From assembly GCF_014844135.1 (NCBI RefSeq), contig NZ_CP041403.1, positions 868,001 to 932,000 of the forward strand: DNA of 64,000 bases. The letters are read 5' to 3'. The stretch comes from Arcobacter sp. FWKO B. Its GTDB lineage: Bacteria > Campylobacterota > Campylobacteria > Campylobacterales > Arcobacteraceae. Shown here piece after piece: positions 1,071 to 60,634 of this stretch; within the stretch, counting starts at the first letter, position 1, and each line of letters opens with the position of its first letter. A model generated the notes under the pieces. The model was not told where the DNA came from. It saw nothing but the letters and a program-made list of their open reading frames with translations, and did no database searches. The position numbers and the translations under genes are program-made.

Positions 1071-1193
1071 AATTAATAACTAATAGCTAATAATTAATAA
1101 CTATGGTATCACTTAGTGATAATTTTAATTGTTGCGAAGCAACACCTAAATTATTAATTATTAATTATTCATTATTAACTATTAATTAATTAG
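1071..1193. repeat. Heptad inverted-repeat element, family 1, copy A
   Basis: The left arm (1071-1104) reads as 7-mers AATTAAT, AACTAAT, AGCTAAT, AATTAAT. The right arm (1147-1193) is its approximate inverse. Between them lie two hairpins: ATCACTTAGTGAT (1108-1120) and GTTGCGAAGCAAC (1131-1143), separated by AATTTTAATT. The right arm contains the TAA stop of the DUF2018 gene. Copies B and C share the same core. The element lies between two co-directional genes. Confidence 0.85.
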
Positions 1194-1486
1194 CTATCTA
1201 ACCTACAAACAATATCACCCGTAAAAGCTATATATAAGCTCTTTTTATGGTCTTCCAACTCATCGCTTCCACTTAATACATGTGATCTTATCATTTTTTC
1301 CAAAGTCTCATCATCATAGTGATTTGCCAGTATTTTTTCCATTGCTGCAAACTTTGCAAATATATCATCAAAAGCATCTTGGACTAGTTCATCATTTGCT
1401 TGATTTGCTATATCCCAAAATTTACTTCTTGGCGTTCCACCAAATATATCGTTTTCATCTTCAAATAGTGCTTCATACTTATTCAT
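1190..1486 (-). CDS. DUF2018 family protein
   Basis: A 98-residue, acidic, mainly helical soluble protein starting MNKYEALFEDENDIFGGTPR. The opening 'YEALFEDEDDIFFGNPRSKF-like' block followed by a helical bundle (residues 20-95) is characteristic of DUF2018, a family that to my knowledge is restricted to Campylobacterota and has no assigned function. The start has a good ribosome site (AAGGGG) a few bases upstream. The gene stands alone between two copies of the same heptad inverted-repeat element, in the same orientation, and its TAA stop lies in the arm of copy A. No signal peptide or membrane segment is visible. Confidence 0.75.
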   Translation of the reverse strand: MNKYEALFEDENDIFGGTPRSKFWDIANQANDELVQDAFDDIFAKFAAMEKILANHYDDETLEKMIRSHVLSGSDELEDHKKSLYIAFTGDIVCRLDS

Positions 1487-1499
1487 ATTTTCCCCTTTA

Positions 1500-1610
1500 T
1501 AATTAATAACTAATAATTAATAGTTAATAACTATGGTATCACTTCGTGACAATTTTAATTGTTGCGAAGCAAATCCACAGTTATTAGTTATTCGTTATTA
1601 ATTATTCATT
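1500..1610. repeat. Heptad inverted-repeat element, family 1, copy B
   Basis: The left arm (1501-1534) is made of AATTAAT, AACTAAT, AATTAAT, AGTTAAT units. The core hairpins are ATCACTTCGTGA (1538-1549) and GTTGCGAAGCAA (1561-1572, one pair broken at the end relative to copy A). The right arm runs to about 1610 and contains the TGA stop codon of hisD. The orientation is the same as copy A, so the two copies flank the DUF2018 gene as direct repeats. Confidence 0.85.
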
Positions 1611-2895
1611 GAATTCTAACTTTTATTGACTCTTCATGAGCCGTAAGCCCTTCTGTGTGTGCTAGTAATGCACACTCGTTTCCAACTTCTTGTATAGCTT
1701 TATGACTAAAGCTAACAATAGAGCTTTTTTTCATAAAATGCTCCACATTTAATGGGCTATAAAATTTAGCCGTACTTCCTGTTGGAAGTGTATGATTTGG
1801 ACCAGCTAGGTAGTCACCTATTGGCTCAGGTGTATTTTCACCTAAGAAAATAGCCCCTGCGTGTTTGATAAAAGGAAGCAACTCAAAAGGATTTTTTGTC
1901 ATCACTTCTAGGTGTTCTGGTGCTATTTCATTCATAAGGGCTAGTGCTTCATCCATATCAGTTGCTACTATTATAGCACCTCTTTCATTTATAGATTTTG
2001 TTGCTATATCTGTTCTGCTTAGTACTTTTAGATAGTTATCTACTTCAATAGAAGTTTGATTTGCAATTTCTGAACAAGTTGTAATAAGTATAGAACTTGC
2101 CATTTCATCATGTTCAGCTTGTGAGAGCAAATCAATAGCTAAATATTTTGGTTTTGCACTACTATCAGCTAATATTCCTATTTCACTAGGACCTGCTATC
2201 ATATCTATATTTACTTCACCAAATACTAGTTTTTTAGCTGTTGCTACGAAAATATTTCCAGGACCTGTGATAACATCAACTTTTTTCAAAGTCTCAGTAC
2301 CATATGCCATAGCAGCTATCGCACTAGCACCTCCAACTTTATATACTTTTGATATTTTACAAAGGTGACAAGCAGCAAGTAAAAGCTCATTTGGTTCGTT
2401 GTTTGGTGTTGGTGTACATACTACTATTCGCTCAACTCCAGCTACAATTGCAGGGATTGCATTCATAAGTAAGCTACTTGGATATGCAGCTTTTCCTCCA
2501 GGAATATAAAGCCCAGCACTATCTACTGGAGTCACCTTTTGCCCCAAAATTGTTCCGTTTGACTCAAAATCTATCCAACTTTTTGGAAGTTGTTTTTGGT
2601 GGAAACTCTCTATTCTATCGTATGCCAAGTGAAGAGCTTTTTTAAGCTCACTATCAAGATTGTCATAAGCCTTTTTCATATCATCTGTGCTTATTTCCAA
2701 ATCACTATCACTACTTGGATTCCAGCCATCAAATTTGGCAATATGTCTTTTTAAAGCACTATTTTTTTCTTCTATTATCTCATCTATTATGCCACTAACT
2801 ATTGCTGTAACATTTTTTATATCACACTTAGCTCTTGCTAAGATTGTCTCAAATTCCTGAGCAAAATTTGGACTTTTTGTATCTATTATTTTCAT
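1606..2895 (-). CDS. hisD: Histidinol dehydrogenase
   Basis: Catalyses the last two steps of histidine synthesis, the NAD-dependent oxidation of L-histidinol to histidine, with a zinc ion. The 429-aa length matches the family. Visible signatures are IPGGKAAYPSSLLMNAIPA (family hallmark in the middle of the protein), GPGNIFVATAKK, DMIAGPSE, and IAPEHLE near residues 320-326, which carries the catalytic Glu-His pair. The start codon follows a good Shine-Dalgarno (AAGGAT) located inside the 3' end of the toxin gene, one base away. The stop codon TGA is contributed by the arm of a heptad-repeat element. Being last in an aroK-antitoxin-toxin-hisD string is unusual for hisD. Confidence 0.95.
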   Translation of the reverse strand: MKIIDTKSPNFAQEFETILARAKCDIKNVTAIVSGIIDEIIEEKNSALKRHIAKFDGWNPSSDSDLEISTDDMKKAYDNLDSELKKALHLAYDRIESFHQKQLPKSWIDFESNGTILGQKVTPVDSAGLYIPGGKAAYPSSLLMNAIPAIVAGVERIVVCTPTPNNEPNELLLAACHLCKISKVYKVGGASAIAAMAYGTETLKKVDVITGPGNIFVATAKKLVFGEVNIDMIAGPSEIGILADSSAKPKYLAIDLLSQAEHDEMASSILITTCSEIANQTSIEVDNYLKVLSRTDIATKSINERGAIIVATDMDEALALMNEIAPEHLEVMTKNPFELLPFIKHAGAIFLGENTPEPIGDYLAGPNHTLPTGSTAKFYSPLNVEHFMKKSSIVSFSHKAIQEVGNECALLAHTEGLTAHEESIKVRIQ

Positions 2896-2896
2896 T

Positions 2897-3187
2897 TTAT
2901 CCTTCTAATTGTGGTAAATTTTGTTTAAATATCTCTAAAACAACTATTATGTTTTCTTCTAAATCAACTTTATAAATAATACTGTAACCTTTATGTATCA
3001 AATCTCTTATGTTTTCATTTTCATAGTAATAAGACTTACGATATTTAAAAGGAAAATTTGGCAATTCATTGATTAATTTACTTATATCACTCTTAAATTT
3101 TTGTGAAGCAGTTACTTTATCTTTTGCAATATAAAAAACAATATCAAAAAACTGTTGCTTAAATAAACTAGTTCTTTTGATTACCAT
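2897..3187 (-). CDS. RelE/ParE-type toxin
   Basis: A 96-aa basic protein with the RelE/ParE fold pattern: an N-terminal strand (MVIKRTSLFKQQF), two helices with a Phe-rich start (FFDIVFYIAKDK...), and C-terminal strands including YSIIYKVD and IIVVLEIFKQN. The central 'NFPFKYRKSYYYENENIRDLIHKGY' region resembles ParE-like toxins, in which the Arg and Tyr residues are near the active surface. I cannot tell ribosome-dependent RelE from gyrase-targeting ParE. The start overlaps the upstream antitoxin gene by 20 nt, as in many type II pairs. It sits between aroK and hisD, and hisD begins one base after its stop. Confidence 0.75.
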   Translation of the reverse strand: MVIKRTSLFKQQFFDIVFYIAKDKVTASQKFKSDISKLINELPNFPFKYRKSYYYENENIRDLIHKGYSIIYKVDLEENIIVVLEIFKQNLPQLEG

Positions 3188-3428
3188 ACATAGACTCTAG
3201 TTTAATATCAAGATTTTTCATCTCTATTTCCCATTCTTCTTCATCATAAAGCTTCATGCTACCATCTTCTACAGCTTTTAAAGTCTTGTCCAAACTTGCC
3301 TTTCTTTCATAAAAGTATGGGTCAAGTTCTAGCTTTTCATCTTTTGCTATCTCTATACATCCACATTTTTCAAGTTCATCTATTAAATGAGCATATTTTT
3401 CATCAAATCTTATCATTCTTGCAGTCAT
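3168..3428 (-). CDS. Antitoxin of the RelE/ParE-type pair
   Basis: An 86-aa acidic protein directly upstream of, and overlapping, the toxin gene. The order antitoxin then toxin and the 20-nt overlap are what the assignment mainly rests on. The sequence (MTARMIRFDEKYAHLIDELEKCG then a long charged helix) has an N-terminal region that could form a DNA-binding or dimer domain and a C-terminal part that could wrap the toxin, but I do not recognise a specific family. The start at 3428 has a strong ribosome site (AAGGAG about 8 nt upstream), which lies inside the end of aroK. A later ATG four codons on is possible. Confidence 0.6.
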   Translation of the reverse strand: MTARMIRFDEKYAHLIDELEKCGCIEIAKDEKLELDPYFYERKASLDKTLKAVEDGSMKLYDEEEWEIEMKNLDIKLESMYGNQKN

Positions 3429-3939
3429 GACCTACTCCTTGAATTATAAAGTCCACTATCTCTTGTAAAGACTTATGCTCAACATCCACCACCAAATCAG
3501 CTATTGCTTCATACTGTGGTACTCGTTTATCATAAAGCTCTTTAGCTTTTTTCATATCTTTTAGAAGTGGTCTTTTTTTGAGTTTACTTGATGCATTTGG
3601 GGATTTTTTGATTCTTTTTAAAATACCTTCAAATGAAGATTTTAAATATACTATGTGACCTAAGTTTTTGATATTTGGACGCATAAAAAATCCGCCACCA
3701 GTTGAAATCAATGTATTATCCACATTTGCTTCTATCCAGTTTGCACACTTTTGCTCTAACTCTCTAAAGTAAGGCTCACCCTCTTTTTCAAAGATTTTTT
3801 TGATTTTTTGATTTTGCATCGATTCTATCAAATCATCAGTATCAACAGCAAAAACACCTTGACTTTTAACAACAGCTCTAGCAATAGTGCCTTTACCGAC
3901 ACCCATAAATCCGATTAGTATAATATTATTCTTTTTCAT
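3403..3939 (-). CDS. aroK: Shikimate kinase
   Basis: Phosphorylates shikimate at the 3-OH with ATP in the chorismate pathway. With the ATG start at 3939 the protein has 178 residues, the usual size. The P-loop GFMGVGKGT is at residues 10-18, DTDDLIE (Mg and shikimate binding) at about 35-41, the GGG motif near 80, and the lid-region Arg in KKRPLL. A TTG two codons upstream is less likely as start. A sigma70-like -10 (TATAAT, minus strand, 3948-3953) lies only 8 nt from this ATG with no Shine-Dalgarno between, so the message may be leaderless. The last 26 nt overlap the antitoxin gene. Confidence 0.9.
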   Translation of the reverse strand: MKKNNIILIGFMGVGKGTIARAVVKSQGVFAVDTDDLIESMQNQKIKKIFEKEGEPYFRELEQKCANWIEANVDNTLISTGGGFFMRPNIKNLGHIVYLKSSFEGILKRIKKSPNASSKLKKRPLLKDMKKAKELYDKRVPQYEAIADLVVDVEHKSLQEIVDFIIQGVGHDCKNDKI

Positions 3940-3947
3940 TAACAAAT

Positions 3948-3953
3948 ATTATA
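3948..3953 (-). promoter_or_regulatory. -10 box of the aroK operon
   Basis: TATAAT on the minus strand, extended by TATGA upstream, 8 nt before the aroK ATG. In Campylobacterota the -10 box is the dominant promoter element. The spacing would place transcription start at or next to the ATG. This is an inference from sequence only. Confidence 0.4.
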
Positions 3954-4039
3954 TCATAGGAATCATTAAAGAATACAAACACTATCTACACATTAATAGA
4001 TTTTTAAAAATGCTTTTTTTATAGAGATATTTACTATAT

Positions 4040-6934: not shown

Positions 6935-6946
6935 CTTACCCCTTTT

Positions 6947-7822
6947 TTATTTTGTATACTTTCTTTCGTACCGTTGCTTCATAGTAATATTACCTATCAA
7001 GCCACCTTGGTGTATATAAATTATTTGACTGTTTTCAAATTCATTTAGGTTTAATAATAAAGTATCAAAACCTACTGGATCATACAATAAGTCAAATTCT
7101 ATCATAGTTTTTGCTTTTAATTCAACCCAAAGCTCATATAAGTTTTTATAAAGATTACCAAAATGATACTTTTTGGAAGTTTCTAAAATAATGGGATGTT
7201 TTGTTTCATCTTGATTTAATCCAAAAAACTCTTTTTTCAAATATGCACTATCACCTACACATGCACAAGTATATACAGGATACATTAAATATTCTTGCAA
7301 AAATAATGCCGTAGTACCAGTACCACTTGGTAAAAATATTTTAAAGTCTTTATTTTTTTGTGTTGATATCCAACTATTTATCTCTTCAGCCAAAATTTTG
7401 ATTCCATATTTTGACTCTTGAGCATACCCCCCTTCAGGAATATACAAAACTTCATTAGTTGTTTTTAATTCTGGTCTTGAAGTGCCATTTAGATTTATAA
7501 TTTTTGCACCATTTGCTAAAGATGCTTTATAATTACCACTTGGATTTTCAAGCAAATAAGATGATATATGGTCACAATAATATTCAAACTCCCACCCCTT
7601 TAGTCTAGATAATACGCTCATAGAATACATAGCATTTGACTGGTTTGAGCCATAACTTACAAGTTTTTTTATATGTGGAAATTCATTTGCTAAGTAATAG
7701 TAAAATTTTCTAGCCTTATTACCACTAAAGTCTTCATTTATCAAATCATCCCGTTTTAGAAAAATATCTAAATCACGAAATGTAATCTTTTGAATTGGTG
7801 TGTTTAGTTTAATTGAATTCAT
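6947..7822 (-). CDS. PLP-dependent deaminase, ACC deaminase / D-cysteine desulfhydrase family
   Basis: A 291-aa member of the tryptophan-synthase-beta fold group that uses pyridoxal phosphate for beta-elimination or ring opening. The segment FLKRDDLINEDFSGNKARKFYYYL (residues about 22-45) carries the Lys expected to hold PLP, and FLPSGTGTTALFLQEYL near 170 fits the phosphate-binding Gly/Thr loop. YGSNQSNAMYSMSVLSRL matches the substrate-binding Ser-Asn-Gln motif of the family. I cannot tell ACC deaminase from D-cysteine desulfhydrase, and the latter is the more common activity in non-plant bacteria. It is slightly short for the family (about 320). It sits directly upstream of the sensor kinase. 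A heptad-repeat element lies in the region in front of it. Confidence 0.75.
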   Translation of the reverse strand: MNSIKLNTPIQKITFRDLDIFLKRDDLINEDFSGNKARKFYYYLANEFPHIKKLVSYGSNQSNAMYSMSVLSRLKGWEFEYYCDHISSYLLENPSGNYKASLANGAKIINLNGTSRPELKTTNEVLYIPEGGYAQESKYGIKILAEEINSWISTQKNKDFKIFLPSGTGTTALFLQEYLMYPVYTCACVGDSAYLKKEFFGLNQDETKHPIILETSKKYHFGNLYKNLYELWVELKAKTMIEFDLLYDPVGFDTLLLNLNEFENSQIIYIHQGGLIGNITMKQRYERKYTK

Positions 7823-7832
7823 AGTATAATCT

Positions 7833-7921
7833 TATCTAAAATCTAATATCTAAAAGCTAAAAGGTATGTATAATGTGTCGCAAAGCGACTCAATACTTTT
7901 TAGATTTTAGATTTTAGATAT
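7833..7921. repeat. Heptad inverted-repeat element, TAAAATC type with hairpin core
   Basis: The left arm (7833-7867) reads ATCTAAA, ATCTAAT, ATCTAAA, AGCTAAA. The right arm (7893-7921) is the inverse (TTTTAGA units). The core contains the perfect hairpin GTCGCAAAGCGAC (7877-7889). It fills most of the divergent gap between the PLP enzyme and exbB, so it must contain or border both promoters. Confidence 0.8.
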
Positions 7922-7940
7922 TACTTAAACAAGGTTTTTT

Positions 7941-8444: not shown

Positions 8445-8445
8445 T

Positions 8446-9758: not shown

Positions 9759-9884
9759 TTCAACCTTTTTGTAATGCCAGATTTCTCACAGAGAGTGCAA
9801 GCACAAAATCTGGTGCATCTTTAAAGACAAGCCCAGTCAGAGACTGGGGTTCCATCAACACCTTCACCCTTCACCCTATTTCCT
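9759..9884. repeat. CCCAG double-hairpin element, copy 1 (minus orientation), with heptad arm
   Basis: The core (9772-9853) holds two hairpins: CCAGATT...AATCTGG (9777-9813) and CCCAGTCAGAGACTGGG (9832-9848). Its reverse complement matches the elements near 16.9 kb and 21.3 kb over most of its length. The right flank (about 9860-9876) is made of TTCACCC heptads that abut the fbpB stop codon. The element separates fbpB from fbpC. Confidence 0.8.
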
Positions 9885-11429: not shown

Positions 11430-11439
11430 TAAAACCTTT

Positions 11440-11555
11440 TAATAATTAATAGTTAATAACTAACAACTAATAATTATGGAATTGCTTCGCAATAAATTAT
11501 AATCGCTTTAGCGATACCACAATTATTAATTATTCATTATTAGTTATTAGTTAAT
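11440..11555. repeat. Heptad inverted-repeat element, family 1, copy C (inverted)
   Basis: The left arm (11440-11475) reads AATAATT, AATAGTT, AATAACT, AACAACT, AATAATT. The core hairpins are ATTGCTTCGCAAT (11481-11493) and ATCGCTTTAGCGAT (11502-11515). Reverse-complemented, the core aligns with copies A and B, with paired changes in both stems (A-T to G-C in one, G-C to A-T in the other). The right arm ends two bases before the fbpA stop codon. Confidence 0.85.
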
Positions 11556-21483: not shown

Positions 21484-22365
21484 ATGCAACATTTAATTAC
21501 AACAAAAGACTTTACAAATGATGAAATCAAAGCTCTTTATGAAGATGCTAAACTTTTTAATGATTTACAATCTAACCTAGTATTAAAAGGTAAGTTAATA
21601 GTTACACTATTTTTTGAAAACTCCACAAGAACTAGAAGTTCATTTGAAATAGCGGCCAAACGCCTAGGAGCTGATGTGGTAAACCTTGATGTGGGGACAA
21701 GTTCAAGTTCAAAAGGTGAGACTATTTTTGATACTGTTGCCAATTTAAACGCTATGAAACCTGATGCTATAGTTATCAGACACAGTGAATGTGGTCTTCC
21801 TCAAAGTTTGATTGATTTTGTGGATTGTCCTATACTAAACGCAGGTGATGGCAAAAACTCCCACCCTACTCAAGCCTTACTTGATTTATACACTATACTA
21901 GAACATTTTGATGGTGATGTAAAAGGGAAAAAACTAGCAATAGTAGGTGATATTAAAACTTCAAGAGTAGCGAGCAGCAACCTAGAGCTTCTTCCAAGAT
22001 TTGGGATAGAGCCTATTTTAATAGCCCCTGAACACTTTATGCCTGATAATACACCATTCAAAAAGGAACAATTCCTACACCAAGTGATAGAAGAAGTGGA
22101 TATAATAATGAGCCTAAGAACTCAATTAGAGCGACATTCACAAGCTTATTATCTATCCCTTGGAGAATATGGCAAAGATTATTGTATCACAAAAGAATCA
22201 GTTGGAGATAGAAATATACTACTACTCCACCCAGGACCAGTAAATAGAAACATAGATATAACAGACGAAATGCTTGTAGATGCAAGATGCAAGGTACTTA
22301 GGCAAGTAACAAATGGCGTTGCTGTGAGAATGGCAATTTTGAAGAAATTAATATTAAAGCACTGA
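21484..22365 (+). CDS. pyrB: Aspartate carbamoyltransferase catalytic subunit
   Basis: A 293-aa enzyme that joins carbamoyl phosphate and aspartate, the committed step of pyrimidine synthesis. STRTRSSFE at 47-55 is the carbamoyl-phosphate loop, HPTQALLD (from about 127) carries the conserved His and Gln, and [10 protein letters not shown] near the C-terminus binds aspartate. No regulatory subunit (pyrI) is adjacent, so it is the compact unregulated form common in the group. The final codons read into a CACTGAG heptad repeat, whose TGA is the stop codon. Confidence 0.93.
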
Positions 22366-22437
22366 GGTACTGAGTACTGAGGTTCTAAGACTTAAAAACT
22401 AAGAAACTCAGTACCTCAGCACTCATCACCTCATTAG
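22360..22437. repeat. Heptad inverted-repeat element, TACTGAG type
   Basis: The left arm reads CACTGAG, GTACTGA, GTACTGA, with degenerate units after. The right arm (22408-22437) is its inverse (CTCAGTACCTCAG). It fills the gap between pyrB and the ubiD-family gene. It carries no separate GC-rich core hairpin. The arms alone could form a long stem-loop. Confidence 0.75.
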
Positions 22438-30105: not shown

Positions 30106-30111
30106 TCTATT

Positions 30112-30144
30112 ACCTTTTAGATTTTACTTTTTAGATTTTACCTG
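30112..30144. repeat. Heptad arm, TAAAATC type, in front of hypA
   Basis: On the minus strand reads TAAAATC, TAAAAAG, TAAAATC, TAAAAGG, then TAATAGA and the hypA ATG. The AAAAGG acts as the likely Shine-Dalgarno. No second arm is present. Confidence 0.65.
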
Positions 30145-30171
30145 ATTTGTTAAAATAAAATTTTAACAAAT
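30145..30171. terminator. Perfect palindrome at the end of hypE
   Basis: ATTTGTTAAAAT and its reverse complement with a 3-nt loop. The hairpin contains the hypE stop codon and lies between hypE and hypA. It could weaken transcription into hypA or protect the hypE mRNA 3' end. Confidence 0.45.
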
Positions 30172-31158
30172 CCTTGGTAGTATCTCACCGCTTGGCATAT
30201 CAAGGGGCTTTTTAGTACCGTAATTTGAATTTAAGATTACCTTTTTTTTCATCGCATTGGTTGCTTTTCCTATGATTGCAGCGTTTGTTGATATTTCAAA
30301 TTTTCTTAACAGTTCTAATGCTTTTTGAGCATCGTTTGGCTCTACTGCTAGTACAAAAGTACCCTCATTTGCCAAAACCATCGGATCAAATCCTAAAATC
30401 TCACAAATCCCTTTTACCTCATCACTTAACGGAATAGCATTTTCTTCCACTTCTATACATATATCACTAGAAGTCGCCCATTCATTAAGTACGGCTGCTA
30501 CTCCACCTCTTGTGGCATCTCTTAGGGCTTTTGGTTTGATACCGCTATCTATCAAGGCTTTTACTACTGGATACAAAGATGCACAATCACTTTTTATATC
30601 AGAACTTAGCTCTATTCCCTCACGGGCTGCAAATATACAAGCCCCGTGTCTTGCTATATCACGGCTTACTATTATAATATCACCTTCCCTAATATTTTGA
30701 CAGCTTATTCCCTCACACTCGATTTTACCTATACCTGAAGTATTGATAAAAAGCTTATCGACTGCTCCTTTTGGAACCACTTTTGTATCTCCACTTACTA
30801 TAATAGCACCGTTTATTTCAAGCTCTTTTTTCATAGAATCCGTGATAATCTCAAGAAGCTCCACCTCAAAACCCTCTTCTATAATAAACCCCACACTTAA
30901 ATATTTAGGCTTCGCACCCATCATAGCTAGGTCGTTGCAAGTACCGCAAATACTAAGCTTTCCTATATCTCCACCTGCAAAAAACAAAGGACTAACCGTA
31001 AAACTATCAGTTGAAAATACTATTCCGTCCTCAAGTACCGCACCGTCTTCACTCTTTGCCAAAATATCATTGGCAAATGCCTTGAAAAACACCTCTTTTA
31101 TAAGCTGATTATTCTCTTTTCCACCGTTTCCGTTTGATAGTTGTATTGTTTTATTCAT
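30163..31158 (-). CDS. hypE: Hydrogenase expression/formation protein HypE
   Basis: A 331-aa ATP-dependent dehydratase that converts the carbamoyl group on its C-terminal Cys to cyanide, the CN ligand of the NiFe centre. It ends in PRIC, the required C-terminal Cys. The N-terminal LSNGNGGKENNQLI and central GDTKVVPKGAVDKLFINTSGIG segments are typical, as is DATRGGVAAVLNEWA. It follows the YhcG-like gene by only 17 nt. The neighbour order hypB-hypC-hypD-(yhcG)-hypE-hypA implies one operon. hypF and the hydrogenase structural genes are not in the window. Confidence 0.95.
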   Translation of the reverse strand: MNKTIQLSNGNGGKENNQLIKEVFFKAFANDILAKSEDGAVLEDGIVFSTDSFTVSPLFFAGGDIGKLSICGTCNDLAMMGAKPKYLSVGFIIEEGFEVELLEIITDSMKKELEINGAIIVSGDTKVVPKGAVDKLFINTSGIGKIECEGISCQNIREGDIIIVSRDIARHGACIFAAREGIELSSDIKSDCASLYPVVKALIDSGIKPKALRDATRGGVAAVLNEWATSSDICIEVEENAIPLSDEVKGICEILGFDPMVLANEGTFVLAVEPNDAQKALELLRKFEISTNAAIIGKATNAMKKKVILNSNYGTKKPLDMPSGEILPRIC

Positions 31159-33370: not shown

Positions 33371-33629
33371 CTTTTATAGCTTGTTGCCTCTCTTCTTCAT
33401 CCATCATGGCTAGTATCTCACGATATGTTTCAAGGGAGAGCAAAGCATCCTCTTCATCTATCTTATTCATCACAAAACCTATATGGATAAGTACAAAATC
33501 ACCTATTTTCACATCATCTTCAGCCATCAAATCAAGACTTGCTTCACGACTCACCCCAAAAGTATCAACAGTTGCTATATTTTTGGTTTTGTCTATTTTT
33601 GTCACACGAGAAGGGATTGAAAGACACAT
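33345..33629 (-). CDS. hypC: Hydrogenase maturation chaperone HypC
   Basis: A 94-aa chaperone that carries the iron fragment and binds the hydrogenase large-subunit precursor. It starts MCLSIPSRV, where Cys2 is the essential ligand after Met removal. The compact beta-barrel segment VKIGDFVLIHIGFVMNKIDEEDA follows. It ends with an acidic helix. It overlaps hypB by one base and hypD by 26 nt. Confidence 0.95.
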   Translation of the reverse strand: MCLSIPSRVTKIDKTKNIATVDTFGVSREASLDLMAEDDVKIGDFVLIHIGFVMNKIDEEDALLSLETYREILAMMDEEERQQAIKDGDNCPNG

Positions 33630-34408
33630 TATCTACACCCCATCTTGAAGCTTATCCAATCAGCTACTTTTTTGACCGTGTCCATATCTTTGATATTGAC
33701 TTCTATGATATCTACATTTGGTTTTAGTCTTCTTGCCTCTTTTTTCTCAGCTTCCATATCGTATTCAAAATGAGGTAAAAGGTCTGTTTTGGTAATAAGT
33801 ACCAAATCAGCACTTCTAAACATCACAGGGTATTTTGCTATTTTGTCACTTCCTTCTGGTACGCTTACAAGGACAATATTCAGATGAGTCCCCACATCAT
33901 AGCTAGCTGGACATACAAGATTTCCTACATTTTCCACAAAACATACATCTATAGGGTCAAGTGGGAGGTGATGAAGGGCTTTGTGTACCATAAAAGCATC
34001 AAGGTGACATGCACTTCCTGTTTGTATCTGATATGCGTCTATTCCTACACTTTTTAGTCTATCTGCATCTTTTGATGTTTCCAGATCACCCTCTATTACT
34101 GCGTATTTGAAGTTTGCTACTTCTTGAAGCTTTTGTAAAAGGGTAGTTTTTCCACTTCCTGGGCTACTCATAAGGTTGATTGCTAGGACTTTATGCTCAT
34201 CAAAATGCTCACGGTTGTGTTTGGCTTGTGTATCGTTTTTGTCAAGTATCTTTGTGATTATGGCAACTGTTTTTTTATCGTTTAGTTGTGGGTTGGCATG
34301 AACCGTATCAAGTCTTTCATCGTGATGGTGATGATGGTCGTCATGGTCATGATGATGTCCGTGGTCATGGTGGTGGTCTGTTATACTACATCCGCAGTCT
34401 TTGCACAT
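33629..34408 (-). CDS. hypB: Hydrogenase nickel incorporation GTPase HypB
   Basis: A 259-aa SIMIBI-class GTPase that releases nickel to the hydrogenase precursor. The N-terminal CKDCGC is followed by a His-rich run (residues about 10-30, many HDH units), a likely nickel store. The G-domain has the P-loop SSPGSGKTTLL, the CHLDA and ENVGNLVCPASYDVG metal and switch segments, and TKTDLLPH. It has a good ribosome site, AAGGAAC. It is the first gene of the hyp operon. A heptad inverted-repeat element lies 16 nt upstream. Confidence 0.95.
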   Translation of the reverse strand: MCKDCGCSITDHHHDHGHHHDHDDHHHHHDERLDTVHANPQLNDKKTVAIITKILDKNDTQAKHNREHFDEHKVLAINLMSSPGSGKTTLLQKLQEVANFKYAVIEGDLETSKDADRLKSVGIDAYQIQTGSACHLDAFMVHKALHHLPLDPIDVCFVENVGNLVCPASYDVGTHLNIVLVSVPEGSDKIAKYPVMFRSADLVLITKTDLLPHFEYDMEAEKKEARRLKPNVDIIEVNIKDMDTVKKVADWISFKMGCR

Positions 34409-34424: not shown

Positions 34425-34514
34425 TTAGGTTGAAGGATGAAGGATTAAACTTGATACTAAGAGATTTTTTATCACTATATACCCTTAAACCTTCACACTA
34501 AACCCTTAATCCTT
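34425..34514. repeat. Heptad inverted-repeat element, AGGATGA type, upstream of hypB
   Basis: The left arm (34426-34455) reads AGGTTGA, AGGATGA, AGGATTA. The right arm (34482-34514) is the inverse with units CCCTTAA, ACCTTCA, CACTAAA, CCCTTAA. The middle (34456-34481) is AT-rich without a clear core hairpin. It lies between hypB (16 nt away) and the DUF364 gene. Confidence 0.75.
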
Positions 34515-34559
34515 TTTAATATATTAGTGTATTTAAGATTAAAGTCCAATAACCAATAA

Positions 34560-35312
34560 CTAATTACTAACTTCTACCAAATAACACTTTCGTTCAAATA
34601 TATCTTCTAAAGTTGTATTATTACATATTTTAAACCCATTGGTATTTATACTAGCTACATGGGTAATGCCAAGATTACTATACCATTTAGGGTAACTTCC
34701 AGCAGAAAAACCTGCTAAAATCACTATTCTAGCTTTTTGAGTAAATTTGAGTAAAGCATCTATTGTTGAGCCTATTAATGAAGCACCAGTAATAACAACA
34801 ATATCAGCTTGGCTAACCCCTTCATACTCAAAAATATCGTTATAAACCCCAAGATGTTTATCACTCTCTTGTCTACAAAAAACATTTACATCTTTGCCAT
34901 GTTGTTTTAATCTCAAAACTACTGGTGATAAGTTCCCTATAAAAACTATTTTATCTGTTTTAGAGCTTTTGTGATTAATAAAATCAGTTAATACTTCCCT
35001 TAAATTACCTTGCAAATCAATATTTTCATAGCTAGATAGAAATTGCCCTATTGCATTTATTGCAGATAGTGCTTGTGCTCTTTTTGCCACATCAAAATAT
35101 TTACCCTTATTTAAAATATCCTCTAAGTCCACATACTCACAATTAAAAAGGTCACCTTCTTTCTTTGGAGTAATAGTCAAACCTATAAACACTTTATCCA
35201 AAAAACCTATTTTGGTGTAGGTCAATGTATCACCCATACCAAAATCCAAAAGCACTAAATTGTGCTGTTTAGCACATATTTTTGCATATTCAATTAATTT
35301 ATTAAGTATCAT
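34560..35312 (-). CDS. DUF364 / DUF4213-type protein, Rossmann-like
   Basis: A 250-aa soluble protein. The N-terminal half (about 1-110) looks like the small domain of DUF4213 proteins, and the C-terminal half is Rossmann-like: IVFIGNLSPVVLRLKQHG, then DIVVITGASLIGSTIDALLKF and VILAGFSAGSYP. The DUF364 family has been called a putative heavy-metal-chelation domain, which is mostly inferred from context. Here it is coupled with hupE (TAATG overlap) and precedes hypB, so a role in nickel or another metal is likely, but no reaction is known. Confidence 0.7.
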   Translation of the reverse strand: MILNKLIEYAKICAKQHNLVLLDFGMGDTLTYTKIGFLDKVFIGLTITPKKEGDLFNCEYVDLEDILNKGKYFDVAKRAQALSAINAIGQFLSSYENIDLQGNLREVLTDFINHKSSKTDKIVFIGNLSPVVLRLKQHGKDVNVFCRQESDKHLGVYNDIFEYEGVSQADIVVITGASLIGSTIDALLKFTQKARIVILAGFSAGSYPKWYSNLGITHVASINTNGFKICNNTTLEDIFERKCYLVEVSN

Positions 35313-41796: not shown

Positions 41797-42573
41797 TTAC
41801 CTTATATCTTTTACAATAAAAAACGAGCTTCCACTACCGCTGAAAAAGGGTGAAGAGTGAAGAATGAAGGGTAAAGGGTGCAGATTTGGATATAGTGTGA
41901 TGGCTGGCAAGTACAAATCATTTGCTTGTTCCATAGTAAACTCTTTTAATATATCTATACTTTTCATACAAAATAATCTCTTCTTTTCACTCACCGATAA
42001 CTCTTTATAAAACTTTTCCCTAAATATCGTAAAAACTTTTGCTGTATTACACTCTACTTTTGGGGTAAATACCTCAATATCAAGAGCATTTTCATCAAAT
42101 CTTTCTACAACTTCACCAATACCACTTACATTTGCACTCTCATATCCATATACAAAAAATGGCACATCTGCCCCTATTTCAGAACCAATTTGTGCTAATT
42201 CATCTTTTGATAAACCAAGATTACAATAAATATTTGTCATATTTAAGAATGTTGCCACATCACTACTTCCACCACCAAGTCCTGCAAACTCTGGGATGTT
42301 TTTTGTTACTTTTACAGAATATTGTTTAAAAAAATCTTCTATTTGTGGTGCAATGTTCAGAAGCTTCAAATATCCCTTGTAGATGGTATTTTTTTCCAAA
42401 CTACATCCAAACTTACCTACTAGATTAAACTTATTTGGATAATCTTTAATAAACTTTATTTCATCATACAAGTTTTTTACTATCATAAATCTTGATGCTA
42501 TTTCATGATAATTACCACGCATACCAGTAATTTTAAGAAAGATATTTACTTTTGCATATGCTTTGTGCTTCAT
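41797..42573 (-). CDS. ispE: 4-diphosphocytidyl-2-C-methyl-D-erythritol kinase, with repeat-derived insert
   Basis: A 258-aa GHMP kinase that phosphorylates CDP-methylerythritol in the MEP pathway. The N-terminal KAYAKVNIFLKI substrate motif, PEFAGLGGGSSDVATFLN (ATP loop, around residue 90), and the C-terminal FFSGSGSSFF motif 3 are present. Just before motif 3, a stretch of about 12 residues (HPLPFILHSSPF) is encoded by a GGGTGAA-type heptad repeat, read on the strand without stops. Family members normally have only a few residues between the preceding helix and FFSGSG, so I infer an in-frame insertion. The start overlaps the truB stop by 4 nt. Confidence 0.88.
   Translation of the reverse strand: MKHKAYAKVNIFLKITGMRGNYHEIASRFMIVKNLYDEIKFIKDYPNKFNLVGKFGCSLEKNTIYKGYLKLLNIAPQIEDFFKQYSVKVTKNIPEFAGLGGGSSDVATFLNMTNIYCNLGLSKDELAQIGSEIGADVPFFVYGYESANVSGIGEVVERFDENALDIEVFTPKVECNTAKVFTIFREKFYKELSVSEKKRLFCMKSIDILKEFTMEQANDLYLPAITLYPNLHPLPFILHSSPFFSGSGSSFFIVKDIR
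41846..41882. repeat. Heptad arm inside ispE, RRRTRAA type
   Basis: On the plus strand reads GGGTGAA, GAGTGAA, GAATGAA, GGGTAAA, GGGTGCA. The coding strand of ispE reads the complement (TTCACCC), which has no stop triplets. The variation between units is mainly by transitions. Confidence 0.8.
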
Positions 42574-48028: not shown

Positions 48029-48068
48029 TTTTTTCCTTTATCCTTTATACTTCAACCTAAAATAATAT

Positions 48069-48961: not shown

Positions 48962-48992
48962 GTATCTAAAATCTAAAATCTAAAATCTAAAA
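48962..48992. repeat. Heptad arm, TAAAATC type, between flhA and argB
   Basis: Four units of (A)TCTAAA (48963-48992) with almost no variation. Only one arm is present. It lies between the flhA stop and the argB promoter. Confidence 0.7.
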
Positions 48993-53629: not shown

Positions 53630-53630
53630 T

Positions 53631-55625: not shown

Positions 55626-56674
55626 TTTTTACCTTTTTTCAACTCATAGACATAGCTAAATATCTCAGCTATTGCTTTATAAAACTCTTCTGGAATCTCA
55701 GCTTCAATCTCTACTTGTGCATACATAGCTCTTGCTAATGCTGGATTTTCTATAATAGGGATATCATTATCCATAGCAATCTCTCTAATTCTAAGTGCTA
55801 AGAAATCTATCCCTTTTGCCACCACTTTTGGTGCGGAATTTTTAGTATTATCATATTTTAAAGCCACAGCATAATGGGTAGGATTTGTAATAACAACATC
55901 AGCACTTGGTACATCTGACATCATCCTACGCATTGCCATTTTCATTTGTAACTGTCTAATTCTTGACTTTACTAAAGGATCCCCTTCCATATTTTTATAC
56001 TCATCTTTTATCTCTTGCTTACTCATCCTAAGAGACTTCATATAATAAAAATGTGTAAAGTAATAGTCTATTATAGCAAAAATTATAATAATAAGCAAAA
56101 TAGTAGACAAAAAATATATTAAAAGTTCGTAAATTGAGTCTAATGTATAACCTAAACTTTTATCCATCATCCTTAACATATCATCACCAAAAAACAAAAA
56201 CAATACAACCATAACAATAAATATAATAGTTAATTTTATAGATAGTTTTAGTGCTTCAATAAGCTTTTTCATACTAAAAACATTCCCCATCCCTTTTATT
56301 GGGTCAAGTTTTTCAAATTTTAGTTTAATAGGGGTAAATATAAAGCCAAATTGAACAAGATTTGAAACAATACCAAAAAACAATACAAGTATCAAAAAAG
56401 GTGCCAACGCATATAAAATATCTTCAACAACAGTAACTGTCATTTGATAATATATAGTTGAATCTACCTCTTTGCCTATAAAAGAGTATATATAAAGCAT
56501 CATTTTTTGTATTTCTGTAAATAAATATCCAGAAAAAAACAATAAAAATAGTGTTCCAAAAAACAAAATAGTTGCTCCACTTACCTCCATTGATTTGGAG
56601 ACATTGCCCTCTTTTTTGGCATCTTCTATTTTCTTGGGGGTGGGTTCTTCTGTCTTTTCTTGATCATCAGCCAT
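55622..56674 (-). CDS. flhB: Flagellar export switch protein FlhB
   Basis: A 350-aa membrane protein of the export gate, with four helices (about 28-215) and a cytoplasmic domain. It begins with the TEEPTPKKIEDAKKEGNVSKS motif. The autocleavage site NPTH (near 264) is intact in VVITNPTHYAVALKY. Its cleavage switches export from rod/hook to filament proteins. It overlaps the TPR gene by 4 nt and follows fliR after 14 nt. Confidence 0.95.
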   Translation of the reverse strand: MADDQEKTEEPTPKKIEDAKKEGNVSKSMEVSGATILFFGTLFLLFFSGYLFTEIQKMMLYIYSFIGKEVDSTIYYQMTVTVVEDILYALAPFLILVLFFGIVSNLVQFGFIFTPIKLKFEKLDPIKGMGNVFSMKKLIEALKLSIKLTIIFIVMVVLFLFFGDDMLRMMDKSLGYTLDSIYELLIYFLSTILLIIIIFAIIDYYFTHFYYMKSLRMSKQEIKDEYKNMEGDPLVKSRIRQLQMKMAMRRMMSDVPSADVVITNPTHYAVALKYDNTKNSAPKVVAKGIDFLALRIREIAMDNDIPIIENPALARAMYAQVEIEAEIPEEFYKAIAEIFSYVYELKKGKK

Positions 56675-56688
56675 CTACATTCCTCAAA

Positions 56689-57441
56689 CTAATAACTAAA
56701 CATCTCAATAAAATACTCTCTAAATGCAGTTACAAACATCTCCATACCAAACATCATAAATAAAAATATAAGTGCAAATTTTAATTGAAAAGTGATAACA
56801 AATGGTGAAAATGCTGGCATTGATTTTGTTCCATATCCATAATATATATCAAGAACAAAAGCTATAAAAAAAAGTGGAAAGGCAAAAGCAAAAGCAAAAG
56901 CAAACATCCTTTTTACTTCAGCAATAGCAATACTTAACCCATCAACACTATATAAATTAAATGTTCCTAACTCTACCATTCCAAAACTTGCAGTAAGCAT
57001 CACAATAGTAGTCTCATACATACCTGTTGTAAAAAATACTAAAATAGCAATAATATATAAAAACCTACTTACCAAACTCTCTTGTGCCCCAGTAGCTGGG
57101 TCAAACATATTTGCCATTGATAATGCTGTAGCATATGATACAAAATCCCCTATGATTCTAACAGCTGAAAATAAAACCGTAAAAAACATAGAACCAACTA
57201 GCCCCAAAGTAATCTCACCAATCAAGCCATCAATAAATGTTCCTTGATTAATATTTGGATTTATTTGCACTATAGGAAATAAAAAAATAGATAAATAAAA
57301 TGCAAACGCCACCCTAATACTTGGGCTTACGCTAGTATGTCCAAAGATTGGCATAAATGCAACAAATGCCAAAACCCGTCCAAGTAACAATAAAAAATTG
57401 TATAATACAACCTCATCTAAGAGGGAAATTAATTCTTGCAT
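56689..57441 (-). CDS. fliR: Flagellar export gate protein FliR
   Basis: A 250-aa membrane protein with about six helices. Features are the N-terminal FLLLLGRVLAFVAFMPIFG, and the conserved IIGDFVSYATALSMANMFDPATG (about 98-120) and middle periplasmic turn regions. FliR combines with FliP and FliQ to build the export channel. FliP and FliQ are not in the window. It is placed between fliK and flhB. Confidence 0.93.
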   Translation of the reverse strand: MQELISLLDEVVLYNFLLLLGRVLAFVAFMPIFGHTSVSPSIRVAFAFYLSIFLFPIVQINPNINQGTFIDGLIGEITLGLVGSMFFTVLFSAVRIIGDFVSYATALSMANMFDPATGAQESLVSRFLYIIAILVFFTTGMYETTIVMLTASFGMVELGTFNLYSVDGLSIAIAEVKRMFAFAFAFAFPLFFIAFVLDIYYGYGTKSMPAFSPFVITFQLKFALIFLFMMFGMEMFVTAFREYFIEMFSY

Positions 57442-57462
57442 TGTATTCCAAATAAGTTCTTA

Positions 57463-60105
57463 TTAAAAATAAGTACCATTTTTTTCTTGTTCAGTTTCTT
57501 GTATCTCTTCTTGTATTGATTCATTTATCTCTTGAGTAGTGTTAGAATTCTCATTACTGTTTTGTTCATATTGACTCCCATTTGAGCCATCTTTATCAAG
57601 TCTAAAATCAAATTCAAAAGTATGAGAATCATCAAAACTTTTCATTAACGCATTTCTTAGCTCATTTTGACTTGCAACTACAGACTCTAAAGTAGCACTA
57701 TTTGTCATATTCATACTAATACTTAGTGAATTGTCTGACCTTTGACTTCTAATCAATATGGCAATTTGTCCTAAATTTGCTGGATTTAAGTTGATTCTAA
57801 ATGCAGTATGAGGTGGCTTGTAGTTTTCATACATTGCCCTTGCAACATCACTCATCATCGAGCTTAATTGTTGTCTTGCACCTATTATTCTATTTTGAAT
57901 AGTAAGTACTTCAACTTCTCTAACTTCTATCTCAACAACCTTTAATGGTGTATTTTGTGTGGTGTTTTGTGTAGATTTTATTTCTGTTGATTTTATATCA
58001 TCATCTACTACCAAATCACTTTTTTGTATATTTTCTTGTGATATTGTATTTTTAGCTAAAATAACCCTATTTATAAATGATGTATTATCCTTAGTTTTAC
58101 TTTTCACAATTTCATCATTTTGGCTTTGTGTTACATCTTCAATATCTTGCATATTGAGATTTAGCATATCTGCACTTGATTTTATATCATTTGCTGATGT
58201 CCCATTTTTTACTATCTCTTTTGCTGTTGCTACATTTTGCATTGCTGCGATTGTAGCATTTTTAGATACTGCACTTTTATAGATATTCTCCATAAAGCTA
58301 CTTTTATCTGTAGCACTTTTATCTATTTCTTCAGCTTTTATCATAGTTGGCTGTTGCAAGCTTGTTGCTGGAGTTTTTATCTCTTCTTTTCCAACCTTTA
58401 AAGAATCTTGTATTAATTTATCCAATAAACTAACACCCTCTTTTTTCTCTGGTGAATTTGTATCTTGAGGCTTTTGGATTAAACTTTGTAAATCATCTTT
58501 TTTAATATTTACTACTTTTGCTTCATCACTATCAAGCTTTGATAATTCAGTTCCAGCATTTAGTTTATTTTGTGCTATATCTGAAGCTTTTGTAGTTGAT
58601 TCAACACTTTGCATAGATTTACTATTTTGTTCTAAGATTGTACTTTCTTGCTTTACTTCTTTAATAATATTTTCTTGCTTTACTTCTTTTACAATATTTT
58701 CTTTTGTATCTTTAGAGCTTTCTTGTATCAAAGTATCTTGCTTTGTATTTTTTGAAATATTTTGTAAATTGCTCTCTTCTTTGGTTGTAATATTACCAAT
58801 TTCTTCTTTTTGTATCACCTCAGTTGCCAAATTCTTCTGTTCACTTTGCAAAAGTTTGTTTTGAGGCATCTGACCACTTTTTACTAAAGTTTTAGTATTC
58901 TCTTCTTTTATATTGCCCATTTTTGTATCAGTTGGAGCTGTTTTTATTTCACCAACACTAACTGAACTATCTTTTACTACCTCTTTATCTATATTTGTCT
59001 CTATTTTAGTTGTAGCAACTGATTTTATATCTTCACTACTAAGCTCTTTAGGGGTAGCTACTACAATATTTTCATTTTGTGATTGTAGCACTTGTGATAA
59101 GTTATTATCACTTTTTTGTGTAGTTTGTTTGTTTGTTGTTTGTTGCGTATTATTAGTTTCTTCTATCTGAGTGTCTTTATTATCTATAATCTCACCTTGA
59201 TTAGAGTTATCAGATATCACTGGTTGCAACTCTTTTGATACTATATTAATTATATTTTCATTAGCTATATTTGTTGGCAACTTACTATCTGTTAATGGTA
59301 TGTTATTGCTTTGTTTTACTTCATTTTGAACAACACTACTTTGTACTTTATTTGTTGGATTAGTAGGCTCTTTAGTAACTTTTACTTTATCAATTAATTC
59401 ACTATTTTGTTGGATAATATTTTGAGATTGTTTTGTATCAATAGTTGTTGTTTCTTTTGTGTTATCGTCTATATTTTGTAATATATCATTTACTGTAGTT
59501 TGTTTTTTTGCACTCATCATTAATGAATCAAACATTGAAGGTTTTCTAACAATCTCTTGTTCATTATTTTCTTGAATCTCTACTTCATCTACTGTTTTAG
59601 TTGTTTGACTACTACTTGGTATTTGTTGAGTAGCAGTTGTTTTTAGTTCACTACTTTTTGTTTCATTTATTAAATTATCTTGTGTTTGTGTATTATTTGT
59701 TTTTGTGTTTATTGAAGTAACAGATTCTTTTGGTTCATCTTTAGATATTATAGTTTTGTCTGAAATATTTGTTTGTATATTATTTTTATTATCTCCACTA
59801 AGCTCAGTCATAGTGCTTGATATTGTAGTTTTTGTATTGTTTTTGGTATCTACTGCTTTAGTATTGTCATTTGATACAACATCTTTACTAGTTGTATCAT
59901 TTCTAGTGATTGTATCTGCTTGAGATTTGATTGAAGACTCAGTAGTTTGCTTTGATGTTGGATTTTGTTGTACATCTTCTTTTGCAACACTTTTTAATAA
60001 CTCATCAAATAAAGAACTCCCCTCTTTGCTTGTTTTTGTATCACTTGATGTTTGTGAAGTATTTGTTGATACCAAAGTATCAAAAAGGCTTAATTCTTTT
60101 GTCAT
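57463..60105 (-). CDS. fliK: Flagellar hook-length control protein FliK-like
   Basis: An 880-aa protein. The long N-terminal part (about 1-740) is low complexity, rich in Ser, Thr, Asn, Gln, Lys and Glu, and probably disordered. The C-terminal domain (about 745-840) matches the Flg_hook domain: INLNPANLGQIAILIRSQ, SLSISMNMTNSATLESVVASQNELRNALM. In this family it switches export specificity by contacting FlhB. Short SLFD-like motifs recur: SLFDTLV (6-12), SLFDELL (31-37), SMFDSLM (near 190), SLLDKLI (near 559) and SFMENIY (near 603). The extent is typical of long Campylobacterota hook rulers. Confidence 0.85.
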   Translation of the reverse strand: MTKELSLFDTLVSTNTSQTSSDTKTSKEGSSLFDELLKSVAKEDVQQNPTSKQTTESSIKSQADTITRNDTTSKDVVSNDNTKAVDTKNNTKTTISSTMTELSGDNKNNIQTNISDKTIISKDEPKESVTSINTKTNNTQTQDNLINETKSSELKTTATQQIPSSSQTTKTVDEVEIQENNEQEIVRKPSMFDSLMMSAKKQTTVNDILQNIDDNTKETTTIDTKQSQNIIQQNSELIDKVKVTKEPTNPTNKVQSSVVQNEVKQSNNIPLTDSKLPTNIANENIINIVSKELQPVISDNSNQGEIIDNKDTQIEETNNTQQTTNKQTTQKSDNNLSQVLQSQNENIVVATPKELSSEDIKSVATTKIETNIDKEVVKDSSVSVGEIKTAPTDTKMGNIKEENTKTLVKSGQMPQNKLLQSEQKNLATEVIQKEEIGNITTKEESNLQNISKNTKQDTLIQESSKDTKENIVKEVKQENIIKEVKQESTILEQNSKSMQSVESTTKASDIAQNKLNAGTELSKLDSDEAKVVNIKKDDLQSLIQKPQDTNSPEKKEGVSLLDKLIQDSLKVGKEEIKTPATSLQQPTMIKAEEIDKSATDKSSFMENIYKSAVSKNATIAAMQNVATAKEIVKNGTSANDIKSSADMLNLNMQDIEDVTQSQNDEIVKSKTKDNTSFINRVILAKNTISQENIQKSDLVVDDDIKSTEIKSTQNTTQNTPLKVVEIEVREVEVLTIQNRIIGARQQLSSMMSDVARAMYENYKPPHTAFRINLNPANLGQIAILIRSQRSDNSLSISMNMTNSATLESVVASQNELRNALMKSFDDSHTFEFDFRLDKDGSNGSQYEQNSNENSNTTQEINESIQEEIQETEQEKNGTYF

Positions 60106-60118
60106 AGTCTATCCTTTA

Positions 60119-60565
60119 CTATGCTTTTAATATTTCCAAAGTCTTTGCATCCATATTTTTATGAGTTTGAAAAGCGGCAATATTTGATTCATATGTTCTC
60201 ATAGCCTCTATCAAGTCTGTCATCTCAACAACTGGATTTATATCTGGATATGCAACATACCCTTTTTCATTTGCATCAGGATGGTGTGGTTCATATCTCA
60301 TTACTGGATTACCTTTAGATTCAAGTACAGTTTTTACCCCTACACCTCTTAGAGTTGATTGATCTCCTGTAGCATGAGGATTTGCACTTCTTTCTTGCTC
60401 TTTTAATAGCACCTCTTGAAAAACAATATTTTGCTTTTTGTAAGGACCACCATCAATAGTATTTGTTGTTTGAGCATTTGCTAGATTTGCACTTACTACA
60501 TTTATTCTTGCTCTTTGAGCACTCATACCACTTGTAGATATATTATAACCATCAAAAAAACCCAT
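60119..60565 (-). CDS. flgC: Flagellar basal-body rod protein FlgC
   Basis: A 148-aa proximal rod protein. The N-terminal MSAQRARINVVSANLANAQTT motif and the C-terminal helix (PVVEMTDLIEAMRTYESNIAAFQTHK) form the coiled coil of rod proteins. I chose the ATG at 60565 because GGAG lies just upstream and the family begins with a short FDxxxIS motif. A longer reading frame extends into the repeat and is less likely. No flgB is seen next to it. A heptad element separates it from fliE. Confidence 0.93.
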   Translation of the reverse strand: MGFFDGYNISTSGMSAQRARINVVSANLANAQTTNTIDGGPYKKQNIVFQEVLLKEQERSANPHATGDQSTLRGVGVKTVLESKGNPVMRYEPHHPDANEKGYVAYPDINPVVEMTDLIEAMRTYESNIAAFQTHKNMDAKTLEILKA

Positions 60566-60582
60566 AACATCTCCTTTTTTTA

Positions 60583-60634
60583 TGCAAAGGGTAAAGGTAT
60601 ATACCACCTAACCCCTAACTCCAAACCCCTAATT
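60583..60634. repeat. Heptad inverted-repeat element, CCCCTAA type
   Basis: The right part (60606-60632) reads CACCTAA, CCCCTAA, CTCCAAA, CCCCTAA. The left part (60583-60598) is GCAAAGG, GTAAAGG. It sits in the flgC-fliE gap, ending two bases before the fliE stop codon. Confidence 0.65.

Follow-up and report, generated by a model that had tools for sequence, protein, structure and literature searches.

Several families of inverted heptamer repeats in Arcobacter sp. FWKO B may copy into and overwrite one another at gene junctions and protein loops

Introduction

Heptamer repeats are usually put down to slippage, whereas in the DNA described here, a window of 64,000 nucleotides from Arcobacter sp. 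FWKO B (contig NZ_CP041403.1, positions 868,001 to 932,000), the evidence points to copying and replacement. The elements in question are dispersed arrays of 7-nt units with inverted arms, and the first-pass annotation of the window had likened them to cyanobacterial heptamer repeats, which is fair as to kind. The small dispersed hairpin repeats of Nostoc that Elhai and others reportedly described in 2008 are said to be embedded in heptameric repeats, a likeness in having hairpins inside heptamer arrays. A miniature inverted-repeat transposable element (MITE) of Porphyromonas gingivalis is likewise said to contain a minisatellite, and would thus be an inverted-repeat element with internal tandem repeats.

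According to PMC4692102, two Xanthomonas genomes contain 186 and 183 heptamer repeats, mostly intergenic GGGAATC arrays, with 70 and 75 cases of two arrays lying close together in convergent orientation. The kind is therefore known, and inverted heptamer pairs as such are not new; for Campylobacterota itself, for which the first-pass annotation knew of no description, no paper on such elements was found among the matches listed in a literature search that left most subscription journals outside its scope. The G-rich heptamers of Xanthomonas and Nostoc (GGGAATC, GGGGAYT; PMC4692102) share with the present elements the 7-nt unit and the variation of length and sequence between related species, but that paper describes one quadruplex-forming word per genome, whereas in the present case each genome has many words, mostly A/T-rich, and there are also hairpin cores, a family with 7–8-nt spacing, replacement of one family by another at orthologous sites, and arrays within the loops of proteins. 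The TAACTGA repeats of Beggiatoaceae, cyanobacteria and Bacteroidetes (PMC4679880) are also short direct heptamer arrays at junctions with a patchy occurrence across phyla, but they comprise one word. The main genome has 169 direct sets and one indirect repeat, with arrays of two to six copies that mostly lie directly ahead of start codons, and up to 43 copies are found in other phyla. Repetitive extragenic palindromic (REP) doublets forming hairpins (REPINs), and the REPs of REP-associated tyrosine transposases (RAYTs), resemble the present elements in having two inverted hairpins with a spacer and in being dispersed, non-autonomous, mostly extragenic and in some cases intragenic, but the word 'heptamer' occurs 0 times in the text of PMC3116915 or PMC3733652.

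What is new here is that one genome holds several families, that four-unit arms enclose hairpin cores, that families replace each other at orthologous sites, and that arrays stand in for protein loops. In our reading these are dispersed repeats akin to REPINs and heptamer repeats, and we consider it an evenly balanced proposition that several families of non-coding, palindromic repeats copy themselves into a few permissive sites, where one overwrites another.

Heptamer arrays of several families

The FWKO B genome is complete in one contig of 2,243,170 bp, and the window was surveyed together with 20 further stretches (462 kb in total), an array being called as a lag-7 self-match segment with a score of at least 12. 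The window yielded 11 such segments, nine of them intergenic; when its intergenic DNA was shuffled 200 times under an order-3 Markov model, the average was 0.035, so the excess over shuffled sequence on which the first-pass annotation had staked its proposal is present. Other periods of 2–24 gave 0–2 segments each, and the multiples 14 and 21 gave five each. In the 462-kb sample, 34 intergenic and eight coding segments were found at lag 7, and 0–1 intergenic segments at every other period of 4–13. Tandem 7-nt units above chance and chiefly between genes characterize heptamer simple-sequence repeats of the type called long simple sequence repeats or short tandemly repeated repetitive sequences (LSSR/STRR), and the arrays share this trait. 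A strictly constant 7-nt period had been proposed at first; period 7 and its multiples do stand out, but the TACTGAG family combines 7- with 8-nt spacing, and arrays of 8-nt units occur in relatives.

The unit words vary (AATARYT, TTTTAGA, TACTGAG, TCTACCC, CAACCAT, TTAACTA, GGTTGAA, TGGTTTA, CAACTCA and others), and the Campylobacterota loci analysed gave 89 arrays with 47 consensus words. The four words with at most two different letters were left out of the composition test. A stop codon on either strand, first thought to lie in nearly every unit, occurs in 37 of the remaining 43 words, but this is largely composition (32.2 ± 2.5 expected with letters permuted), and as a selected feature it was judged weak; purine asymmetry of the words amounted to nothing (22 of 43 vs about 19.5 expected). 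Variation mostly by transitions holds for AATARYT units, which chiefly vary at R and Y, but units with T/G transversions (AATGAAT, AACGAAT) are common. Half of the array loci of the sample fold back on themselves: 16 of 32 reached z <= -3, compared with 4 of 60 control junctions (RNA parameters; Fisher P = 4e-6), and with their arms and this significant foldback the elements possess the terminal inverted repeats of MITEs. Dispersed inverted-arm heptamer elements with several words are thus real, but they do not form the one superfamily first envisaged, for families keep their own words and cores.

Replacement at orthologous sites

Orthologous sites were compared with three genomes of the same genus (G001, G002 and G003), and the loci, far from being fixed in all relatives, are in part empty there and in part occupied by another family. 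At 1.1 kb, the site is filled in G001 and G002 by an inverted TACTAAG element spaced at 8 nt, and in G003 it spans 42 bp with no array; at 48.95 kb, where FWKO B has TAAAATC, the first two genomes each have an AATARYT-like element that includes a hairpin, and G003 has none. A GGTAAAA array occupies the 7.8-kb site in G001 and G002 (none in G003), and inverted AGTGAGT/CGACTTA arms lie at the 60.6-kb site in G001 (none in G002 or G003). The 1.5-kb site is empty in all three (16–23 bp vs 118), and the 9.9- and 11.4-kb sites are empty in G001, the sole relative aligned at each. Variant elements occur at 22.4 kb in G001 and G002 and none in G003, a nearly identical array occurs at 30.1 kb in G002, again the sole relative aligned, and the 34.4-kb site corresponds in G001 to a 61-bp junction with a TTGGTATA stretch. 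Three more 20-kb stretches of FWKO B formed a second set of sites, in which position 1753230 is occupied by AATARYT in FWKO B, by TAAGTAG arms in G001 and by nothing in G002, 1754360 is filled in G002 and empty in FWKO B and G001, and 490764 is common to FWKO B, G001 and G002 and absent in G003. By eye, word families are recognizable across FWKO B, G001 and G002 while swapping places.

Different words at the same spots in related species suggest mobile repeats that may overwrite one another. Junctions with an array in FWKO B were also more often filled in a relative in two of six comparisons at the 0.05 level, namely in G002 for the window (3/6 vs 0/16, P = 0.013) and in G001 for the second set (4/7 vs 2/26, P = 0.011).

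The distribution of arrays is patchy. Eight other family members (G004, G007, G010, G011, G012, G014, G016 and G020) showed no period-7 array with a score of at least 12 in samples of 40 kb each (20 kb for G010), and G011 has a six-copy CTAATAA array outside its sample. In G027, of another family and with a GC content of 57%, perfect arrays of CCAATGA (12 copies) and AGTGAGA (14 copies) were observed (L242, 6500-6726 and 7841-8100), together with two similar cores, each flanked by G-rich and C-rich words of opposite sense. A vocabulary in common with cyanobacteria was considered and rejected, direct overlap being one word (not significant, P = 0.20, and biased by the choice of records); among 72,556 plasmid records, seven were hit by a query composed of two words from Campylobacterota, four of these being cyanobacterial, and queries with other words returned nothing, nine records or two, probably because BLAST masks simple repeats.

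Arrays inside genes

The array inside ispE occupies the place of native coding sequence in G003 and is shorter than the native sequence by 3–4 residues, and G001 and G002 carry four TGCTGAG-type units at the same place. A second gene has two such places. The gene at 6947-7822, beside the 7.8-kb site, has an orthologue in 159 of 248 genomes of the order (E <= 1e-60); Pfam gave no family for it or for the loop gene of locus L015, and by its motifs the protein may be PLP-like (pyridoxal phosphate). Among 96 distinct orthologues (101 minus five duplicates), arrays occur in loop X in 10, in loop Y in 15, in either in 16 and in both in nine, and control windows taken from other parts of these genes gave 1 of 693. 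The set combined 70 of the 159 matching genomes (30 loci from the search and 40 picked in favour of families with long loops) with genes from L001-L080, so that 16 of 96 is the count of a selective set and not the frequency of a random sample.

In the nine genes with both arrays, loop X is purine-rich in nine and loop Y pyrimidine-rich in eight, and loop X scores a mean of 12.3 against the reverse complement of loop Y, compared with 4.2 against Y itself. The two arrays lie 171 nt (L015) and 173 nt (L033) apart where measured, exact inverted matches between the loops reach 17 nt in L273 and 12 nt in L292, and the X and Y words of a gene match each other better than those of other genes overall (P = 0.016). 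L024 has a 25-nt inverted GTAG-type REP pair in the two loops instead, and other hairpin-like repeats were seen by eye in loop X of L274, L275 and L282. Since other palindromic repeats lodge in them as well, the two loops serve as landing places in general.

A single loop can hold the same word in lineages that are separate. In a tree built from 36 loop genes with the loops excluded, where the 21 rows without a word label were not counted, the nine loop-Y words of the remaining 15 genes require at least nine changes (least possible eight), and TTCACTC, ATCAATC and CAACGCT require two changes each even when well-supported branches alone are counted. Two changes mean either two origins or one origin and a replacement, so that words are exchanged either way; since independent drift to the same heptamer is unlikely, copying from a common vocabulary or transfer between lineages may be invoked.

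Anatomy of the AATARYT family and the case for slippage

The AATARYT family follows a fixed plan with two hairpins and mostly four-unit arms: arm, hairpin, A/T-rich spacer, second hairpin (by eye usually different in sequence type from the first) and inverted arm. The hairpins of the family, here collectively called type A, read TATCGC-loop-GCGATA, GTTGC-loop-GCAAC or GTGAC-loop-GTCAC. Among the 34 hairpins of 17 cores, which come from three genomes, 28 form a stem of 5 bp or longer (after shuffling, 10.5 on average and at most 18), and nine different inner stems occur, so the structure of the core is kept while its sequence changes. Ten listed places include one coding chance match, and by our own reading eight of the other nine carry AATARYT arms, or seven of the ten under a stricter scripted rule. 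Exactly four units are found in 33 of 44 arms, a count that spans FWKO B and its relatives and is limited to arms in which three or more units fit a fixed pattern, whether or not a core is present, a rule that favours AATARYT and can shorten arms.

Ordinary replication slippage, in which a chance heptamer seed expands locally, its words diverge by mutation and become homogenised, and fold-back template switching now and then produces inverted arms, is a rather unlikely account of these elements. In its favour, one survey cited in PMC4679880 reports heptamers as the most frequent class of long simple repeat in most genomes, polymerase slippage over about 7 nt has been proposed (PMC4679880 and PMC4692102), long perfect arrays exist in G027 and in FWKO B itself (TGGTTTA, ten copies), some orthologous words are close (TAAAATC vs GGTAAAA at 7.8 kb), and the loop words are partly clustered on the tree. 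It predicts, however, that neighbouring units should be most alike, and within the AATARYT family, to which this result applies, adjacent units taken under the same counting rule are identical in 16 of 131 cases compared with 27 in shuffled order (P = 0.0002), or in 6 of 109 compared with 15.0 once repeated arms and homogeneous arrays are excluded. Between units two positions apart, identity is found in 28 of 87 cases, and unit frequencies would give 18. The predominance of four-unit arms, the presence of the same words at many sites and in several species, and the three loop-Y words with two changes each also speak against it. Within the AATARYT family, copying in place between the two arms of a locus was rejected, since arms of the same locus are no more alike than arms of different loci (15.2 vs 17.6, P = 1.0, n = 16), which indicates that arms spread with the family. 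The neighbour deficit, the four-unit arms and the lack of extra likeness between the arms of one locus together argue against both slippage and arm-to-arm copying as the present generator of AATARYT elements. One AATARYT arm of FWKO B (1753331-1753386, L125) has been expanded by two alternating units in 14-nt steps, likely by secondary slippage.

Type B REPINs and the Y1 transposase

The genome has a single Y1_Tnp match, which is RAYT-like and lies at 1660708-1660983 (E 1.9e-12; 177-aa open reading frame (ORF); L166), and its REPIN is a second kind of core, type B (GGAACGCCAG...CTGGGGTTCC). Two REP hairpins in inverted orientation are found in type A cores and in type B, but only type B flanks the RAYT gene and only it can therefore be filed as a REPIN; type A hairpins also differ from described REPs in lacking a GTAG tag and a linked transposase. 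By eye, neither type has a conserved foot tag (GTAG or CGTC), the feet being TATGG, TATTG, TTGAG, TTTAGG and similar in type A and GGAAC in type B. Inverted pairs that lack a core occur as well, at 853779, 1652529 and window position 22.4 kb.

It is improbable that the elements are REPINs moved by this single Y1 transposase, with heptamer arms as the outer part of its substrate. The transposase match does lie among type B REPINs (12 type B feet), the REPIN core at 9772-9853 resembles those around it, a type B core sits between heptamer arms at 1761533 and another adjoins TTCACCC units at 9.8 kb, and at 491879 a chimera joins a type B hairpin bearing a TAGATGG arm to a type A hairpin whose arm is AATARYT. 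However, heptamer or heptamer-like arms were seen by eye in just two of the nine listed type B REPINs of the sample, and the 3.3-kb transposase locus contains no type A hairpins and no period-7 arrays. Among relatives, G004, G016 and G020 have the Y1_Tnp gene and no period-7 array in 40 kb each, G027 has both, and G002 has elements and no Y1_Tnp found at 86% completeness. The Y1 transposase as a general driver was accordingly rejected, there being no association over 31 genomes in which array state was judged at a single locus each.

That the elements are local regulatory or RNA-stabilising hairpins under selection at each junction is very improbable, for although foldback is in excess and nine of the ten intergenic window sites have neighbouring genes that run in one direction (the tenth has divergent neighbours, by the ORF table), sites are empty or changed in family in relatives, elements occur in ispE and coding loops, no Rfam match was obtained in the window, and only 2 of 10 terminator-like matches in 1.0-12.7 kb fall in an element.

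Features of the window

The sites of the window are collected in Table 1. Of the places first listed, those at 1.1, 1.5, 7.8, 11.4, 34.5, 41.85 (ispE) and 49.0 kb are recovered at lag 7 with scores of at least 12, that at 30.1 kb at lag 14, and that at 22.4 kb at a lower threshold with lags 7 and 8 allowed (score 10.5); the 9.9-kb site (score 10.0, units adjoining a REPIN) and the 60.6-kb site are weak on their own. Seven sites had been credited with an inverted second arm. Six were folded as single-stranded DNA, and five of them (1.1, 1.5, 7.8, 11.4 and 22.4 kb) fold better than all of 200 shuffles (z -3.6 to -8.5), but the 34.4-kb site does not (z -1.2, 22 of 200 shuffles equally good). Two elements include the stop codon of a gene, the one at 1496..1610 the TGA of hisD (1606-2895, minus) and the one at 22361..22434 the TGA of the upstream carbamoyltransferase gene (21484-22365).

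Table 1. Heptamer elements and arrays of the window, with window coordinates
Feature	Position	Structure	Evidence
AATARYT element	1070..1188	left arm 1070-1103, two-hairpin core 1104-1148, inverted right arm 1149-1188	fold z -4.3
AATARYT element	1496..1610	left arm 1496-1533, core 1534-1578, right arm 1579-1610	fold z -7.6
TAAAATC element	7834..7923	left arm 7834-7866, hairpin core GTCGCAAAGCGAC, right arm 7898-7923	fold z -8.5
Type B REPIN and TTCACCC units	9772..9877	REPIN ~9772-9853, then units 9861-9877	sequence, Tandem Repeats Finder (TRF)
AATARYT element	11439..11553	left arm 11439-11476, core 11477-11520, right arm 11521-11553	fold z -3.6
TACTGAG(G) inverted element	22361..22434	7- and 8-nt spacing, without hairpin core	fold z -5.3
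TTTTAGA/TTTTACT array	30110..30143	14-nt period	found at lag 14
AGGTTGA/AAGGATG and TTAAACC/CCTTAAT arms	34427..34514	AGGTTGA/AAGGATG left arm, TTAAACC/CCTTAAT right arm	weak foldback
AATAACT-like array	34546..34576	overlaps 3' end of gene 34560-35312	score 14
GTGAAGG/GAAGAGT array	41846..41879	inside ispE (41797-42573, minus)	lag-7 scan
(ATCTAAA)4 array, TAAAATC word	48964..48992		lag-7 scan
Short inverted array	60586..60632	GGGTAAAGGT...ACC..CCCCTAA	score 9.0, weak alone

A near-perfect hairpin (GATTTGTTAAAAT...ATTTTAACAAATC) at a gene end (30144-30172) adjoins the TTTTAGA array. A further weak site, absent from the first listing, comprises TTTATCC units at 48030-48052 (23 bp, score 11), with no array in G001 or G003. 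Repeats of 6-, 18- and 24-nt period were also observed at positions 34317-34378 of the gene 33629-34408, where by eye they encode a His/Asp-rich stretch that is probably metal-binding.

Discussion

Taken together, the comparison of orthologous sites, the neighbour deficit of one family and the same loop words in separate lineages argue for copying and replacement, that is, for palindromic repeat families that would copy into and overwrite one another. The chances seem about equal for and against this reading as a whole, in which the permissive places are gene junctions and tolerant protein loops, and each family is made of its own heptamer word (one of a 7- or 8-mer). Copying might proceed via foldback of single-stranded DNA, as proposed for REPINs, or by template switching from arrays elsewhere; a trans-acting enzyme could be involved, and local slippage may merely lengthen arrays secondarily, as in the perfect arrays of 10–14 copies. 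A more specific version, in which junctions and loops are fixed 'rewritable' sites whose heptamer arms are repeatedly overwritten from a small cross-lineage vocabulary by a copying system that writes the arms oppositely even across about 170 nt of coding sequence, is tentative and on present evidence unlikely.

Several observations weigh against copying and overwriting among families. No enzyme for copying was found, and Y1_Tnp is present in 5 of 8 array-positive compared with 16 of 23 array-negative genomes, the array state being taken in each genome from a single locus no longer than 21 kb (L001 and L043, with A/T-run matches alone, left out). No clean target-site duplication was seen; at 1754360 the filled and empty sites might by eye have TAA on both sides, in flanks that are A/T-rich and ambiguous. 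Full-length AATARYT matches in FWKO B are 70–86% alike, so that no recent burst is visible. Sharing of filled sites was not significant with G001 in the window (4/9 junctions with an array in FWKO B vs 2/18 others, P = 0.07) or with G002 in the second set (2/5 vs 4/20, P = 0.34), and with G003 it was 0/6 vs 1/10 in the window and 0/5 vs 0/11 in the second set. The match between X and Y words is not significant inside lineages (P = 0.16 and 0.33), and coupling of the two arms is accordingly weak. Shuffled loop-Y words need a mean of 11.1 changes and as few as nine in 6 of 200 shuffles, which indicates some clustering, part of the pattern being plain descent, on a tree in which 7 of 33 inner branches are well supported.

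For the biology of these bacteria, it follows from arrays standing where protein loops would be that repeats of this kind alter the sequences of proteins. Two questions, why the period is seven and what writes the arrays, become directly testable.

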